From positions 1-39,630 of IMG/VR virus record IMGVR_UViG_3300022872_000013: a DNA stretch of 39,630 bases; one strand, given 5' to 3'. Below the pieces are notes generated by a model. The model saw only the letters and a program-made list of their open reading frames with translations. It was not told where the DNA came from and ran no database searches. Position numbers and translations under genes: made by a program. This DNA is from a virus. Shown in pieces: positions 20,560 to 39,237 of this stretch (position 1 is the stretch's first letter; each line of letters opens with the position of its first letter).

Positions 20560-22431
20560 CTAGGCTGCTGCTGCCCTCATTCTTTGAGCAAACAGTGACT
20601 TCTGCTTTAACATAAAATCATCGACACGTTCTTGTGAAACTTTGTCAAATTTCCAAATCTGAGGACCATAAGAGAGAACATCAAGCAAGTCAATAAGACC
20701 TTTCCGTTGCCCATATTGTTCTACTTCTTCTTTGAACTCGGTACAATTATTCGTGTCTAACCAAAGTTCATGGCGCTCTACGATTGGAATGAAATTTTCA
20801 ATTCGTTCTGCTTTAGCGTTTGCGTTCTGTGGAGTCTTGAGAGGAAGAAACTGGATACCAACAAGCTCTGGATGATCGTGCTTGTGTTCTTCGACGAAGT
20901 AGTTTAGATGATAAAGCAAATACTTCTGTGCTGCCACTGCTTCGACGTAGACAACACGAAGCTTCCATTTGACTGCGAGAAAAAATATCTGCTTAACAAA
21001 ATCATCTATAGGACAAGCTTTGGCCCATTGATCGAGTAAGTAAACTCTGCGAGGATCACGCTCTACTCCAGTAACCGCAATAGCATGACGGCACCGACCG
21101 TCTTTGCCGGCTTCTTGGCCTAAGTGTGAACCTCCGTGATTCGGATCAACTGTCATATAACGATCCAGATTGCGTGGAAAGACATCTTTTATTACATCGC
21201 CTTCTGCTACATGATGACGAATGACAATGCGATACTGCTGAGGATGAGAAGTCTCAAAGTATCTGCTAACTATCGAAGATTCCTTCGGCACCGCCAATGC
21301 ACCAGTTACTTTTTCAAAGTTAAAATAGCGAAAATCCGCCATATTAAACTTGGCTTTAGAAGGATCAATAGGATAGTTAAGAAACTGACAAGAAAAATGA
21401 TAGCTGCCAAGACGGCGCTTCCAGCGTAGTAACTTCTCCCGTGTGAAAGCCTCTGGGAATATTGGATCACCGAAAGGATGAAGAGAGCAACAACCACCCA
21501 GAGCGGAATGAGTAGTCCAACTAAAATAAGGCTCTTCCTGACGTATGTGCGAATTGAGGTCATCATGCGACCACCTGTTACCTACGACTATCTCGTCAAA
21601 GTCTCTACCGGGATTATCCGGGTCTGAATCTGTAGCACCGACCAGGATTTGATGATAATCGATTGTATCGGCCATAACAATACTGGATTTTCTGGCTTCT
21701 CTTCCCACAAGATCATCTTGCACCACGACGTTGTAATGACGTGATTGTAGGGCCGCGCCGACTCCGATAAAATCGAAAGTACCTTCTCCCTGTCCACGTC
21801 CAGCAGGAGTTCGTCTTTGATGAAGAGATTCATTTGTCCACGTCTCCTTTTCAGTTGGAATTATTTCTGGAAATAGGTGACGGAAGAATGAATTGTTTTC
21901 GTAGTGGTTTGAGATTCGGATACCCAGTTTGATTGCGTTCTTGATAGTCTCGGACACCAAGAGGATGCGTATGTCTTGGCTGTGGGTTCGACGCATCCAC
22001 TCAATGTAGAGATCAGAGTAACCAACTGAAGTAAAGAAATCTTCTTCCCGTTTGCCAAAAGGTAATGCTCTCCAAATCGAAAAGCACTCGCTGTAGACTG
22101 TACTTTTGAAATGGTCACGGGGAATCTCGATTCCTTCCTTAAGGCCATCTTTCATTACAGTAAGACACATCTGATAATGAAGATTCTTTGCTTTGTCGGA
22201 GTTCTTAGAAAAGCGATTCTTGCCCATGACAACGGTGCTGAAATAGTAAAGGTCCATCAAAGCATTAGCGCGAAAGACTTGCTTTTTCTCTGCGGCATTT
22301 TTACAAAGATCCGTGGGAATGAGATTGTAACCAAGAATAGTAGAACGCGGCACGAAGGTATCCCCAGTCTCTCCTACTTCAAGAGTCCTGAGGATATCTC
22401 GCACCGTTTGTTCTATTTCACGTTGGCTCAT
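20560..22431 (-). CDS. terL: Terminase large subunit
   Basis: 623 residues. The ATPase half has a divergent P-loop (IPRDHFKST, residues about 103-111) and Walker B VVVQDDLV with the paired acids needed for ATP hydrolysis. The nuclease half has the RNase H-like acidic residues: YMTVDPNHGG, VYVEAVA and DLLDVLSYG. It is the motor that packages DNA through the portal and cuts the concatemer. The ATG overlaps the preceding stop codon (ATGA). Length and motif order match other phage large terminases. The packaging mode (cos, headful, terminal repeats) cannot be read from the sequence. Confidence 0.93.
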   Translation of the reverse strand: MSQREIEQTVRDILRTLEVGETGDTFVPRSTILGYNLIPTDLCKNAAEKKQVFRANALMDLYYFSTVVMGKNRFSKNSDKAKNLHYQMCLTVMKDGLKEGIEIPRDHFKSTVYSECFSIWRALPFGKREEDFFTSVGYSDLYIEWMRRTHSQDIRILLVSETIKNAIKLGIRISNHYENNSFFRHLFPEIIPTEKETWTNESLHQRRTPAGRGQGEGTFDFIGVGAALQSRHYNVVVQDDLVGREARKSSIVMADTIDYHQILVGATDSDPDNPGRDFDEIVVGNRWSHDDLNSHIRQEEPYFSWTTHSALGGCCSLHPFGDPIFPEAFTREKLLRWKRRLGSYHFSCQFLNYPIDPSKAKFNMADFRYFNFEKVTGALAVPKESSIVSRYFETSHPQQYRIVIRHHVAEGDVIKDVFPRNLDRYMTVDPNHGGSHLGQEAGKDGRCRHAIAVTGVERDPRRVYLLDQWAKACPIDDFVKQIFFLAVKWKLRVVYVEAVAAQKYLLYHLNYFVEEHKHDHPELVGIQFLPLKTPQNANAKAERIENFIPIVERHELWLDTNNCTEFKEEVEQYGQRKGLIDLLDVLSYGPQIWKFDKVSQERVDDFMLKQKSLFAQRMRAAAA

Positions 22432-25602: not shown

Positions 25603-25631
25603 TCTATCGACTGTACATGGAGAAAACAAAC

Positions 25632-26153
25632 ATGAGTAACGAAACCAATGTATCTGAGTTGAAGTCAGTGAAAGTGACTGACTCCAAAGCGACACTAGCG
25701 AGCGGAGTTGTTGAATTTAATCCGCTGTCAGTGTTGAATGAACGTCAGCGCATCGCCCTTGCAGCAAAGTGGGGCGCACTCAAGCAAGCTGAGCGGGATG
25801 CGTATGTAGAGTATAGCTCTGCGGGCGTTACAGATAGCGCTACACTCTACGTTATCGCTTCAATCCTCACTGAGGCGAATAACAAAATCTTCAGTGACAG
25901 CCGTGGTGAGTATCTGGGGATAATGCAGCAATGGTATCAGAGTTTGACCAGCGCGGAAGCTTCGATCAAAAACTACGCCGAGAACGAGTTGCAAAAGCTA
26001 GCCGATAAGACCACGGGCGCACAGCAACTCACACTGCTTTCAGCGTTAAAGGCGAAGCTACTGGCCAACCGCACATTCTTGCCAGAACCGGTAGAGAAGT
26101 CATTTCGCGCTCTGTGCAGGTTCTATGGATTCGACTTGAATATGGTCAAGTGA
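25632..26153 (+). CDS. Hypothetical protein, 173 aa
   Basis: Start chosen at MSNETNVSELKSVKVTDSKA with GGAGA 9 bases upstream; an ATG five codons earlier has no ribosome site. The protein is soluble and helical (LNERQRIALAAKWGALKQAE, then ENELQKLADKTTGAQQLTLL). Not recognised. First gene of the rightward arm, so probably expressed early. A strong hairpin follows its stop codon. Confidence 0.7.
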   Translation: MSNETNVSELKSVKVTDSKATLASGVVEFNPLSVLNERQRIALAAKWGALKQAERDAYVEYSSAGVTDSATLYVIASILTEANNKIFSDSRGEYLGIMQQWYQSLTSAEASIKNYAENELQKLADKTTGAQQLTLLSALKAKLLANRTFLPEPVEKSFRALCRFYGFDLNMVK

Positions 26154-26173: not shown

Positions 26174-26207
26174 AATAAGCACAGAGAGAATATCCTCTGT
26201 GCTTATT
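26174..26207 (+). terminator. Terminator-like hairpin after first rightward gene
   Basis: AATAAGCACAGAG and CTCTGTGCTTATT form a perfect 13-bp stem with an 8-base loop, 21 bases after the stop codon. The A-rich and T-rich ends of the stem could act in both directions, though the downstream T-run is short. Confidence 0.6.
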
Positions 26208-26249: not shown

Positions 26250-26262
26250 TGTACTAGAATGT

Positions 26263-26690
26263 GAGAGGGTACTCCAGTACCCCCTGTAAAGCGATGATTC
26301 GATTGACTTTAACCTCTTACCCTATACATGCGTCCGAAAAAATGACACGCGATGGTGGGGCGAAGGGCATAGGCGGATTCCGAAATGCATGAATTCGTCT
26401 AGGAAAAACAAACGTAGCAAAAACGTTCTTTTAATGTATAGGTAAGTAAAAATATATTATTTATCATATATACAAAGAACAGAAGAAGAAAAGAGTTTTA
26501 GCAAAAGAATGAGATGTGGTATGAGCGAATGAGATGTGGTATAAACTTTCTCTTCTACTGATCTTTGCACACGCGCCGCGCCGAGGGCATGAGATGAGGC
26601 ATCGCGTGTCAAAAATTCCGACGTATGCATAGGGGTGGAGGTTAAACCCCGTCGAATGAATGACATAGAGAGGGTATTCGACTACCCCCT
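26263..26690. other. Candidate replication origin (inverted repeat with AT core and iterons)
   Basis: Two 58-base arms (26297-26354 and 26600-26657) are inverted copies matching at 44 of 58 positions without gaps, including the 12-base core CATCGCGTGTCA. Each is flanked on its outer side, 10-11 bases away, by a related palindrome (GGGTACT-CC-AGTACCC at 26267 and GGGTATTCGACTACCC at 26671). Between them, 26431-26470 is 35/40 A or T, and GAATGAGATGTGGTAT occurs at 26507 and 26527, with a 13/16 copy at 26587: spacing 20 and 60. Inverted repeat, AT-rich unwinding core and phased iterons are hallmarks of replication origins. No gene is convincing here. Confidence 0.55.
26507..26602 (+). repeat. 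20-bp-phased iterons
   Basis: GAATGAGATGTGGTAT at 26507-26522 and 26527-26542 are identical; 26587-26602 matches 13 of 16. Starts differ by 20 and 60 bases, so copies lie on nearly the same helix face. Likely binding sites for an initiator or regulator. Confidence 0.6.
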
Positions 26691-26705
26691 TCCCATCTAA
26701 TTGTC

Positions 26706-26735
26706 TTGACAAACACACTCTCTCAGGCGTATGAT
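26706..26735 (+). promoter_or_regulatory. Promoter for the 177 aa gene
   Basis: TTGACA (26706-26711), an 18-base spacer and TATGAT (26730-26735). It lies directly beside the right flank of the origin candidate and 27 bases before the ATG, so its start site gives a short leader. Confidence 0.75.
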
Positions 26736-26762: not shown

Positions 26763-27296
26763 ATGGTAGATAGGACGCAGTTTCCAGAGTTTCAGGAGTA
26801 TGTACAAGCGTTGTTATTGTACAAACAAGTCAAGAGTGCGTATCCAAAGTTTTTAGAGCGTTTTGGACACTGGCAAACGTCTAAGAATCCTCTTGAGCGT
26901 GCAAAGTTTTATGATGAGAAAGAAAAGAATTCACAAGTATGTAAGGACTACTACGCTGTGAAAAAGCGTTATAAAGAAACCATCGCACGTGCTGAGCTTG
27001 AGGCAAGAGGTTATAAACTCTCTGCTACAGCTCTTGCTGAGATTGCTGCTATTGAAATACCTGTATCAATGCAGGATATTATTAATAGCAATAAGACCGT
27101 AGCGAAAGAAGCTGCACATTTGTTTAATCCTTATGTCAGGAGAACTCTCAGAGAGTTAGCTATTGTTGAGGGAAGAGAGGTTAAACCTGAATGGATGGAG
27201 ACTGAAGAAGAACTCTCTCAGTCTATGGAGCAGTTTAATCCTGATGTCTCAGCGGATGGTAAGATTATGTTTGATGAGGAGTTTGACAAACTCTAA
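26763..27296 (+). CDS. Hypothetical protein, 177 aa
   Basis: GAGGAGG about 10 bases before the ATG. Soluble and helical, with many Lys/Glu/Tyr (FERAKFYDEKEKN-like stretch around residue 45; KDYYAVKKRYKETIARAELE) and an acidic C-terminus (EEELSQSMEQFNPDVSADGK). Not recognised. It is driven by its own sigma70-type promoter immediately beyond the origin candidate, so an initiator or early regulator is possible, but no DNA-binding motif is visible. Confidence 0.75.
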   Translation: MVDRTQFPEFQEYVQALLLYKQVKSAYPKFLERFGHWQTSKNPLERAKFYDEKEKNSQVCKDYYAVKKRYKETIARAELEARGYKLSATALAEIAAIEIPVSMQDIINSNKTVAKEAAHLFNPYVRRTLRELAIVEGREVKPEWMETEEELSQSMEQFNPDVSADGKIMFDEEFDKL

Positions 27297-27564
27297 GGAG
27301 TCGGCACATGCGTACATGCGTACATGCTTGAAGCGCCTCAATCTCAAGCTTAATCTCAATCTCAACCTAAGCATTGTCTATGCGCACATGCATCTGAAAA
27401 TTAACAAGTTCTAACGACGTTCCTTGGACCGGAACAATGATGACACTATAACGTAGTATAACCTTAACAATCGCCAAGCGGCAGAAGGAGACTCTTATGC
27501 ACATTTGTAACTAAACTGTGTACACCCTGGTACTATCATCCATCTAATGTGGAGAGAAAACCAC
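27297..27564 (+). other. Non-coding stretch with GTACATGC repeats
   Basis: No convincing gene. Two adjacent GTACATGC words (27312 and 27320) are the reverse complement of the GCATGTAC words near 25 kb. A run of short AATCTCA-like repeats follows (27338-27370). GTTCC/GGAAC (about 27419-27435) is a small hairpin. A five-codon frame after GGAG near 27497 is too short to call. Confidence 0.45.
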
Positions 27565-27687
27565 TGGCAGACTTGCTCTGCCATAGACGCTACAAGAGTT
27601 GCGAGTTTGATTTGTACCAGACCATGCCTATCATATGTAGGTGATGCTGAAAACCGCAAACTTTAGATACTGGCGTAGCGTCTATGG
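27565..27687 (+). ncRNA. Structured RNA candidate 2 with exclusive hairpins
   Basis: A perfect 13-bp closing stem, CCATAGACGCTAC (27581-27593) with GTAGCGTCTATGG (27675-27687), encloses TTGCG/CGCAA (27599/27655) and a hairpin around CCTA/TAGG (27627/27638). A separate perfect hairpin, TGGCAGA/TCTGCCA (27565-27583), shares three bases with the closing stem, so the two forms exclude each other. The small membrane protein gene starts 40 bases later. Looks like a leader that can switch fold, or an independent RNA. Confidence 0.4.
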
Positions 27688-27726
27688 GAGCGCAAGATGC
27701 TTCATAAACAAGGAGAACATGTACAC

Positions 27727-28154: not shown

Positions 28155-28206
28155 AGCGCATTGGAGGTATCATAAGAGTCATTTTCTTACTCTCCTCCAA
28201 TGCGCT
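28155..28206 (+). terminator. Terminator-like long hairpin
   Basis: AGCGCATTGGAGG (28155-28167) pairs perfectly with CCTCCAATGCGCT (28194-28206), 13 bp, and AGAGT/ACTCT can stack inside. It starts 9 bases after the stop of the 69 aa gene. No clear T-run follows, so it may instead protect the transcript or be part of the structured series. Confidence 0.5.
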
Positions 28207-28224
28207 ATACATGCGAACATGCTT

Positions 28225-28397
28225 TTTGTCGAAAGTAGAATGTAGTGACGACTATCGCCAATCGCTATGACTTACTTAGTTCTCATATGTGCTCTGAGTA
28301 AGTTCAAATACAGTGAATTGGTACGATGTAGACGAGAACTATCATCAGAAGTTTAGCTAAGCAGAGCCTGCTTGTTAAGCTTCCTACTTTCGACAAA
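28225..28397 (+). ncRNA. Structured RNA candidate 3 with H-type pseudoknot
   Basis: Closed by perfect 14-bp TTTGTCGAAAGTAG (28225-28238) with CTACTTTCGACAAA (28384-28397). Inside, ACTTACT (28270-28276) pairs with AGTAAGT (28297-28303). The very next bases, TAGTTCTC (28277-28284), lie in that loop and pair with GAGAACTA (28334-28341) outside it: an H-type pseudoknot of 7 and 8 perfect pairs with adjoining stems. AAGCAG/CTGCTT (28359-28373) is a further hairpin. No convincing gene reads through. It starts after a terminator-like hairpin and ends 6 bases before candidate 4. Confidence 0.5.
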
Positions 28398-28403
28398 GCG
28401 CAG

Positions 28404-28493
28404 GTTCTGTAGGACCGAGTACAGAGAGTGCGGGGAACACTCTCTTGAAGCAATAATCGAACAGCCTATAATGCTTCCTCGGCCCTACAGAGC
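28404..28493 (+). ncRNA. Structured RNA candidate 4, three-way junction
   Basis: P1: 28404-28419 with 28478-28493, 16 positions with one G-U and one A-C mismatch. P2: AGAGAGTG/CACTCTCT (28423-28430/28438-28445), perfect 8 bp. P3: GAAGCA/TGCTTC (28447-28452/28472-28477). Junction linkers are 3, 1 and 0 bases, compact enough to stack. The 3' end of P1 (AGAGC, 28489-28493) can instead pair with GCTCT (28498-28502), just before the AAAAGGAG ribosome site of the next gene. This layout resembles a riboswitch or thermosensor. No known family recognised. Confidence 0.5.
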
Positions 28494-33732: not shown

Positions 33733-34181
33733 TGACACAATCTAGACAAGAAGCAGAACATTTGATGGAGCAACAGCACTATCCTCCCGATTATCAGGAA
33801 GAGTTTGATGAGGAAGATACTTGTGAAAGATGTGGTAGTGTGCTCATCAACGAAGAAACTCTATGTGATGCTTGTATCAAAGAACTTCGTGAACTAGAAC
33901 AGGAGCCAGAAATGAAACTCAAAATATTCAAGTATCCGCTAACCATGGACGGCGATACAACTCTTGAACTTCCACGCAACGCTCAAATACTGAGCGTTGG
34001 CGCACAAAATAGCCAGCTTTATTTGTGGGCACTCGTAGACACTGAAATAGGCGTGATAGAATCACGTTATTTTCGTAGTCTAGGCACTGGATGGCCGATA
34101 ACAAAACCTGGAAAGTTTATCGGAACAGTATTCTTTTTTGAAAGCAACCTTGTACTTCATGTATTTGAGGTGAATCTATGA
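33732..34181 (+). CDS. Zinc-ribbon plus DUF7352-like protein, 149 aa
   Basis: N-terminal 60 residues are acidic with a zinc ribbon (TCERCGSVLINEETLCDACI). The C-terminal 90 residues (MKLKIFKYPLTMDGDTTLEL, ILSVGAQNSQLYLWALVDTE, GTGWPITKPGKFIGTVFFFE, VLHVFEVNL) match a small phage family usually annotated DUF7352. An internal ATG (33912) with AGGAG 6 bases upstream marks exactly this domain boundary, so a short form may also be made. Function unknown. Confidence 0.7.
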   Translation: MTQSRQEAEHLMEQQHYPPDYQEEFDEEDTCERCGSVLINEETLCDACIKELRELEQEPEMKLKIFKYPLTMDGDTTLELPRNAQILSVGAQNSQLYLWALVDTEIGVIESRYFRSLGTGWPITKPGKFIGTVFFFESNLVLHVFEVNL

Positions 34182-34591
34182 AATACTACTACGATCGCTA
34201 CTGGGGCTGCTTTTTCAAACGCTCCATCGAAAACGGCACTGGTCCAGCAACTCTTGACAATGGTATAAAACCCACCGACCTAGAGCTTATCGGCGTTGGC
34301 TATAGTGGCCGTCCTGGTATGCTCAACGACATTCACTCACAAAACATTGCTGACCAAGGTCCGCTTCCAGCAGGAACCTACACCTTCTCTGGTCCATTTA
34401 CTGATCCTAAGCGCGGTCCACAATGTTGGCGGCTCGAACCAGCACCAACGAATCGTATGTTCGGTCGGTGTGCGTTTATGAACCACGGAGATACTAGCGA
34501 CATGTCTCACGATGCTTCTGATGGTTGTATCATTAGCCCACACTGGGTGAGAAACCTATGGACTGATGGAGATACACTTGAGGTACTGTGA
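34178..34591 (+). CDS. L,D-transpeptidase-fold peptidoglycan enzyme (DUF2778/Tlde1-like)
   Basis: 137 residues. Pattern IGVGYSGRPGMLNDI, QGPLPAGTYTF, AFMNHGDTSD and HDASDGCIIS: His103 then Ser-x-Gly-Cys117-Ile, the catalytic layout of the YkuD/Tlde1 fold, which cuts or exchanges L,D-bonds in peptidoglycan. No signal peptide, so it needs a holin or other route to reach the wall, as for endolysins. GAGGTG before the ATG, overlapping the previous stop. It is the last gene before a terminator. Candidate endolysin; alternative is an early cell-wall remodelling enzyme. Confidence 0.65.
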   Translation: MKYYYDRYWGCFFKRSIENGTGPATLDNGIKPTDLELIGVGYSGRPGMLNDIHSQNIADQGPLPAGTYTFSGPFTDPKRGPQCWRLEPAPTNRMFGRCAFMNHGDTSDMSHDASDGCIISPHWVRNLWTDGDTLEVL

Positions 34592-34655: not shown

Positions 34656-34699
34656 CATAGGTCCGAGGGAAGTCGTTGAAAAGATGCGGGTTATGGCGC

Positions 34700-34728
34700 T
34701 TGACAGACTTGTATACAAGGGGTAGAAT
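34700..34728 (+). promoter_or_regulatory. Promoter with spacer palindrome
   Basis: TTGACA (34700-34705), 17-base spacer, TAGAAT (34723-34728). The spacer contains the perfect 12-bp palindrome CTTGTATACAAG (34708-34719), an ideal operator: a bound repressor would block RNA polymerase. The start codon follows after only 6 bases, so the mRNA should be leaderless. Confidence 0.8.
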
Positions 34729-34734
34729 GGTCAT

Positions 34735-34968
34735 ATGCCTCACACCCCGCCGTTGACCACCGCATCGACCGTCCGAATCTTCCAAGCCCAAGCCGACGCT
34801 CTGAAGGTAGATTATCCAAGACTTTCTACTAGCGCGCTTGTGCGTGTACTATTACAACTATTCTTAACTAAAAAAATTCCAGAAGCATACCCTCTTGCGC
34901 TAGAGGAAATGATCCGTGCTGACGAAGCACAGAGGCGCCAAGTGACAAAACGAGTTTCTGTAGCATAA
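34735..34968 (+). CDS. Small regulator-like protein, leaderless mRNA, 77 aa
   Basis: The ATG lies 6 bases after the -10 box and lacks a ribosome site, so translation should be leaderless. The core (DYPRLSTSALVRVLLQLFLT then KKIPEAYPLALEEMIRADEA) looks like a small helical dimer, with the S-T-S-A-L-V-R pattern seen in ribbon-helix-helix DNA-binding proteins. The 12-bp palindrome inside its promoter suits self-repression by such a dimer. Family not proven. It is first in the second rightward operon. Confidence 0.7.
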   Translation: MPHTPPLTTASTVRIFQAQADALKVDYPRLSTSALVRVLLQLFLTKKIPEAYPLALEEMIRADEAQRRQVTKRVSVA

Positions 34969-38532: not shown

Positions 38533-39033
38533 ATGGCATTTCAAATGTCCTATCAGAAAGAAGAACTCTCTGGAGCATTGCCCGTACCAGCAGGATGGTA
38601 CACACTACAAGTCAAGAACTTCCGTCCGAAGGCGTCGAAGGATAAAGAGTCAGTGTCACTCAATGCTGAGATGGCTATCATTGACAACTCAGAGTATGAT
38701 GGACGCAGAGTATTTGCGGGTCTTAATTCTAAGGCCGGCTTTATCATCTTCGACTTCGTTCATGCTTGCGGATTTCAAATGGAGGAGATTCAGGATGAGT
38801 TCGCAGGAACCGAAAAGGCCAAGCTGACACCGCCGGGGATTTTTGAAGGCTCGGATACACATCCTGATGATCCATCGCAGTGGAAGTATCAAGGACCACT
38901 CTTGAACGTGACGTTGGACGTTGAATTGGCGGAGACAGAATATCAAGGTAAGAAGCGTAATGAGGTTCGCCAGTTTAAATGCAAGGTTCCGGGTTGCACA
39001 GAGAAACATAATACGAACCTGATCAAGAACTAA
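38533..39033 (+). CDS. Single-stranded DNA-binding-like protein (DUF669-type), 166 aa
   Basis: AAGGAG 8 bases before the ATG. Begins SYQKEELSGALPVPAGWYTL then QVKNFRPKASKDKESVSLNA, the layout of DUF669-type phage OB-fold proteins ('E-x-x-x-L-x-x-G-x-Y-x-x-x-I-x'). The C-terminus has a C-x4-C (KVPGCTEKHNT region) and basic tip. With the nuclease and ATPase it completes a recombination module and probably coats single strands. Confidence 0.7.
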   Translation: MAFQMSYQKEELSGALPVPAGWYTLQVKNFRPKASKDKESVSLNAEMAIIDNSEYDGRRVFAGLNSKAGFIIFDFVHACGFQMEEIQDEFAGTEKAKLTPPGIFEGSDTHPDDPSQWKYQGPLLNVTLDVELAETEYQGKKRNEVRQFKCKVPGCTEKHNTNLIKN

Positions 39034-39062
39034 GCAGACGGAGCGGGTGGCACAGCACCTGC

Positions 39063-39237
39063 TTAATGCTAGAGGACCAGTCCGAACTCTGGTCCGCGCA
39101 TTAAAATTCAGCAGTAGCGCAACCAACGCAGGAAAGGGGGTGATGCCCAATGCGCCTCGAATAACAGAGAGTAAATCATCAGTGCTGACCCGGCGCTCTT
39201 AGGCACCGTATAGAGCCAGCCGCAACCAACACGGTGC
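39063..39237 (+). ncRNA. Structured intergenic RNA candidate 7
   Basis: The 259-base gap before the next gene holds TTAATGC/GCATTAA (39063/39098) with GGACCAG/CTGGTCC (39074/39089) in one arm, and GCACCGT/ACGGTGC (39203/39231). GCAACCAAC is repeated at 39119 and 39222. CATCC/GGATG (about 39266-39279) lies near the ribosome site of the following gene. No gene reads through. It resembles the 25-30 kb structured leaders in design, not in sequence. Confidence 0.4.

Follow-up and report, generated by a model that had tools for sequence, protein, structure and literature searches.

A mirrored, AT-centred intergenic region as a candidate replication origin in a family of uncultured soil phages

Introduction

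What is the large inverted repeat between a 178-aa gene and a 177-aa gene of the phage record IMGVR_UViG_3300022872_000013 for? The window analysed here is that complete IMG/VR virus record (39,630 bases). An original prediction had proposed that positions 26263–26690 are a replication origin, on the grounds of symmetric arms, an AT-rich stretch and three iterons, with the 177-aa gene as a possible initiator. The region was compared with its counterparts in related phages. From these comparisons, and with a probability of about 60%, 26.25–26.76 kb is read here as the replication origin (replicator) of this phage, combined with an early promoter.

Results

Mirrored arms around the AT maximum

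26255–26354, left arm of the quasi-palindrome (BLAST core 26264–26354)
26421–26480, AT core (83% A or T), the record's AT-richest 60 bp, with the densest 40 bp at 26437–26476 (35/40)
26600–26699, right arm of the quasi-palindrome (BLAST core 26600–26690)

The two arms (100 nt each, 245 nt apart) paired at 70/100 positions without gaps (self-BLAST E 5.5e-8). A whole-record scan for quasi-palindromes of up to 700 bp placed this repeat first (score 32.9; runner-up 18.2), and the best scores in 120 dinucleotide shuffles had a mean of 14.0±1.2 and a maximum of 17.6. The repeat is real and longer than the 58-base arms first described; the 44/58 matches given for those arms were not reproduced, the best being 42/58 (26294–26351 with 26603–26660). 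The 40-base stretch was read as predicted, with 35/40 A or T at 26437–26476.

The arms occurred once per genome. The mirror region was the top quasi-palindrome in six of nine records (G000, G001, G002, G004, G009 and, by a hair, G008). In each of the eight phage-only records, no more than ~30 bp separated the record's AT-richest 60 bp from the mirror centre; in G001, a probably chimeric record, the mirror-centre window was the AT-richest of the phage part among the top windows listed. Comparison in relatives had been proposed as a check on the origin, and it found symmetric arms around the genome's AT-richest point kept across lineages. Left arm, AT core, right arm, near-consensus promoter and gene stood between the same two genes in ~18 related phages, and this layout between the 178-aa gene and a 177-aa-type gene was common to nearly every relative, even beyond DNA that BLAST could align. 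The architecture was clear in L163 and L189 (terminase 61–67% identical to the queries) and suggestive in L174 (49%); L186 and L187, the remotest relatives (terminase 35%), showed no region of this kind.

Paired turnover of the arms

Arm pairing was tested with one sequence per lineage (11 lineages) and 20,000 partner permutations. The best partner of each left arm was its own right arm in 11/11 lineages, with a mean own-pair score of 65.4 against 22.3 for permuted pairs (highest permutation 47.9), and arm scores between lineages were at background. Because of these two results, arm sequences are judged to have been wholly replaced across lineages while both sides stayed alike. Mismatches between arms comprised 121 G.T and 101 A.C, with no clear G.T excess and no strand bias, and in folding tests single arms did not outperform shuffles for either strand (mean z -0.5 to -0.7). 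From mismatches and folding together, the constraint on the arms is assigned to DNA rather than RNA.

Arm type and the neighbouring genes

25617–26153, + strand, 178-aa gene (p178), conserved left neighbour (~90% identical even between phages with different arms), with a helical AlphaFold model and no known fold
26763–27296, + strand, 177-aa gene (p177), candidate partner of the arms (initiator or regulator) by co-variation with them

Within the window's clade the 178-aa protein was 85–96% identical throughout, even where the arms differed. Arm scores in this clade were 150–178 at p177 identities of 83–89%, 34–60 at 56–64% and ~20 at 44–50%, and L011 and L016 had an arm score of 104 at a p177 identity of 92%. 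L018 and L011 were equally distant from the window in terminase, FtsK (84 and 85%), VWA and DnaJ-like proteins, and were 81% and 54% identical to it in p177; apart from small genes beside it that only some of the phages have, p177 alone followed the arms. Outside the clade, L028 and L092 (p178 62, p177 74) had an arm score of 92, and L028 and L051 (p178 80, p177 35) one of 33. The left arm, though it adjoins p178, also followed p177. By these comparisons, arm type follows the 177-aa gene and not the 178-aa gene or other genes.

Originally called an orphan, the 177-aa gene has relatives next to the same repeat. Both proteins were modelled as helical, with a mean predicted local distance difference test score (pLDDT) of 81 for p178 and of 74 for p177, which had a long helical hairpin and an acidic tail. 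No significant Pfam or PHROG match was obtained for the two proteins or their G004 counterparts, and sequence and fold searches of the PDB with both gave nothing usable and no matching solved structure.

Core and iterons

26507–26602, + strand, three iteron-like 16-mers (26507, 26527, 26587), two exact and the third 13/16

L015 and L051 had a common core (93% over 189 nt) with different arms and 29% identity in p177, so on alignment the core moves independently of both arms and p177. The predicted iterons were present in the window and in none of 15 further sequences of this interval, among them those of the nearest relatives, which have the same arms; for this reason they look like a local duplication. 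The conserved, helically phased direct repeats of an iteron-type origin were accordingly not found, the 16-mers being absent from the other lineages tested.

Dyads and promoters

26287–26311, left 25-bp dyad (TAAAGCGATGATTCGATTGACTTTA), by direct reading, in mirror register with the right dyad
26643–26667, right 25-bp dyad, with the -35 box 38 bp downstream
26706–26735, + strand, near-consensus sigma-70 promoter of the 177-aa gene
34669–34693, third 25-bp dyad, followed after 6 bp by the TTGACA (34700) of the replication operon
34735–34968, + strand, 77-aa ribbon-helix-helix-like protein by sequence pattern, candidate dyad binder

The only element common to all arms was a weakly conserved 25-bp dyad (approximately TAAGTCG-N11-CGACTTA, A/T centre). 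The match was weak in the left arm of some lineages, including the window, in whose clade a weight matrix favoured the overlapping 26295–26319 over 26287–26311, also with a weak match. In 18 lineages the two dyads were 273–361 bp apart with a midpoint 0–36 bp from the AT peak. The third dyad lay ~8–9 kb downstream and was found at the corresponding place in G001, G002, G005, G006, G007, G008 and G009, with a sigma-70 promoter a short way downstream. The gene that follows it was of the ribbon-helix-helix type by sequence pattern in 6/8 cases (the window and five relatives); the 77-aa protein had no Pfam match.

The strong promoter predicted at 26706 was read there (TTGACA-N18-TATGAT), and a near-consensus promoter stood on the right side in 18/18 lineages. 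A mirrored left-hand promoter was sought and was absent as a rule; G006 has TTGACA in the mirror position. Distances from dyad to -35 box fell mostly in one helical phase (6–8, 14–17, 28, 36–38 and 46; exception 32), with a Rayleigh p of ~5e-5 at 10.5 bp that is rough since lineages are not independent. Given this phasing and the third dyad ahead of a promoter, promoters are most likely also a target of the protein that binds the dyad.

Many promoters (26706–26735, 34700–34728 and their counterparts in relatives) carried a lineage-specific palindrome between -35 and -10, such as CAGCCGCTGCAATGCGGCTG in L015, ACCCCCCAAGGGGGT in L109 and TTGTATACAA at 34.7 kb, as though operator specificity had shifted as well.

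Genome map, relatives and other features

No end repeats were found in the window record. G004, G005 and G006 had 123-nt end overlaps and form circular maps of 48.8–49.7 kb, so the window is probably a large part of a ~49-kb genome. The leftward gene half carried structural genes and the large terminase (20560–22431). Rightward genes from ~25.6 kb encoded FtsK-like, VWA, DnaJ-like, PD-(D/E)XK exonuclease and Sak4 proteins, and the same rightward arm in G004 extended to a family-A DNA polymerase and a DUF3987 primase/helicase-like protein. IMG/VR held 24 loci for the 178-aa gene and more than 100 for the terminase. Searches of GTDB genomes with the 178-aa protein and the terminase found no host, and GenBank phages gave no DNA match to the window; the matches there were distant terminases only (20–26%), including phages of filamentous cyanobacteria and an archaeal virus.

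G001 (99.6 kb; loci L135–L139) comprised a family phage at ~23.9–70.1 kb joined to unrelated phage-like DNA. It was considered as a prophage in host DNA and rejected, since its flanks resemble another phage (RNA ligase, polynucleotide kinase), and it is for the same reason probably a chimeric assembly.

26174–26207, 13-bp perfect hairpin 3' of the 178-aa gene, probable terminator, a palindrome that recurs here in most relatives
27550–27705, + strand, structured RNA
28205–28412, + strand, 208-nt large branched RNA fold
34178–34591, + strand, 137-aa protein carrying a Tlde1 domain (Pfam PF10908, E 9.4e-11), not expected among early genes
39033–39092, + strand, type-P5 twister ribozyme (46.2 bits, above the Rfam gathering score)

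The 208-nt fold reached -77.7 kcal/mol against -48.1 for shuffles (z -7.4), was closed by TTTTTGTCGAAAGTAG/CTACTTTCGACAAAG and matched no Rfam family at E<=1. In the RNA at 27550–27705 (z -5.1) the two ends (GGCAGA-CTTGCTCTGCCATAG ... CTATGGGAGCGCAAGATGCTC) were strongly conserved, and the interior varied strongly from one relative to another. Hairpins of a similar kind, whose long closing stems were often TATTCTCTAGG...CCTAGAGAGTA, recurred in G001–G008. Among eight relatives, the twister ribozyme had a weaker match in G009 only.

Discussion

Origin reading and proposed mechanism

Several properties of the region are those of an origin. The AT-richest 60 bp of each phage-only record lay at its centre, putative initiator-type sites were repeated beside this element at a conserved position, and the phages encode their own family-A polymerase, DUF3987 primase/helicase-like protein, exonuclease and Sak4, which was counted in favour of an origin. 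In the proposed mechanism the AT core would be the unwinding site, and the two inverted arms would be composite binding modules, with lineage-specific outer and inner boxes around the family-wide 25-bp dyad, that seat initiator and regulator complexes symmetrically on both sides of the core. Opening of the core would let two forks move apart, one along each of the divergent gene halves of the circle. The probable reader of the lineage-specific boxes would be the 177-aa protein, expressed from the neighbouring promoter and acting by itself or as part of a complex, and that of the dyads a dimeric regulator, for which the ribbon-helix-helix-like 77-aa protein is a candidate. The dyad regulator would also control two promoters, one serving the replication operon and the other, an autoregulated one, the 177-aa gene. 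The arms may in any case have a regulatory role, alone or with replication, because they carry the dyad used at promoters.

A bolder form of this proposal is held tentatively. Here the region and p177 would be a new type of phage replicator-initiator pair, in which mirrored arms peculiar to each lineage are recognised by a small, entirely helical protein of no known fold, and the specificities of arm and protein turn over together, so that one phage family would hold many mutually independent origin specificities. Such joint turnover is likened to plasmid incompatibility or to archaeal origin recognition box (ORB)/Cdc6 pairs.

Several results weigh against the origin. GC skew had been suggested as a check, and in the three circular genomes the minimum of the cumulative skew lay 1.3–5 kb from the site and the maximum 0.5–3.3 kb from its antipode, which is compatible with an origin; the extremes follow gene direction as well, so that the two are confounded, and skew at fourfold sites gave no replication signal. 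The arms were weak in G005, G006 and G007, where other hairpins outscored them; G007 kept an exact 12-nt and G005 a 16/17-nt inverted box, and both dyads were in place in all three. No initiator or DNA-binding fold could be recognised in either neighbour. As for the predicted role of the 177-aa protein as initiator, it co-varies with the arms as an initiator would, and the claim is weakened because the helical models match no solved structure. Since p177 lies directly beside the right arm, exchange of a cassette could account for part of this co-variation. Finally, the far-off promoter dyad and the helical phasing with promoters speak for transcription control.

Alternative explanations

The last point leads to the strongest alternative, a transcriptional loop operator, which we consider unlikely. 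A repressor or activator array on both arms would form a ~340-bp loop that controls the promoter of the 177-aa gene, and replication would start elsewhere. The strong right-hand promoter in every lineage, the phased spacing and the third dyad at the 34.7-kb promoter all fit such an operator, and a symmetric loop would put the core at its apex. It leaves unexplained the coincidence of the core with the genome-wide AT maximum in every record, its long A-tracts, which are stiff rather than flexible, and the mirroring of long outer and inner boxes on the side that has no promoter.

A partition, packaging or other nucleoprotein site (centromere-, pac- or cos-like) would account for a unique, non-coding, symmetric region with a co-varying neighbour protein, as in partition cassettes. 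We regard this as improbable: the region is ~4 kb from the large terminase gene and across the divergent junction, no ParA-like gene was recognised among the genes scanned, and GTDB genomes gave no prophage or plasmid-like copy.

A long hairpin RNA transcribed through the region would explain co-varying long-range complementarity; it was rejected as very improbable, since the mismatches had neither G.T excess nor strand bias, single arms folded like shuffles and Rfam gave no match. A remnant mobile element with terminal inverted repeats, of the miniature inverted-repeat transposable element type, fits the ~445 bp with inverted ends and was likewise rejected, with scarcely any probability left to it, on its fixed place in every lineage, arms unshared between lineages and lack of a second copy in each genome.

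Comparison with known origins

By the tests made, the region is a member of none of three systems with which an origin here would share parts of its layout. In archaeal ORB origins, inverted boxes flank an AT-rich region, and boxes and adjacent initiator gene diversify together (PMC4010727). The present region has the same architecture, and the likeness goes no further than architecture: it is found in a phage with bacterial-type promoters and has two composite 100-nt arms. An adjacent AAA+ Orc1/Cdc6 initiator was not found in Pfam and PHROG, the neighbour being a small helical protein without known fold. Herpes simplex oriS/oriL has inversely oriented initiator boxes around a bent, destabilised AT-rich spacer (PMC12543377); the likeness is in boxes and spacer, whereas spacing and arms are far larger here and the sequence is unrelated. 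No UL9-like helicase turned up among the genes scanned, in which no search aimed at UL9 was made. The lambda origin has inverted-repeat sites for a dimeric initiator beside a 40-bp AT-rich region and is coupled to transcription (PMC5043065), and it resembles the region in these parts; in lambda the sites are contained in the initiator gene and flank the AT region on a single side, whereas those here are intergenic and mirrored on both sides, and the iterons are not conserved.

Significance

Origins are rarely recognisable in uncultured phages. If the origin reading holds, the origin in this family would be predictable by comparison, from the mirror centre, the AT maximum and the co-varying neighbour. 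Full turnover of the arms with kept pairing would provide a natural series of matched DNA-site/protein pairs, and because of this series the question of which protein sets origin specificity may be addressed directly with matched pairs of arms and 177-aa genes.
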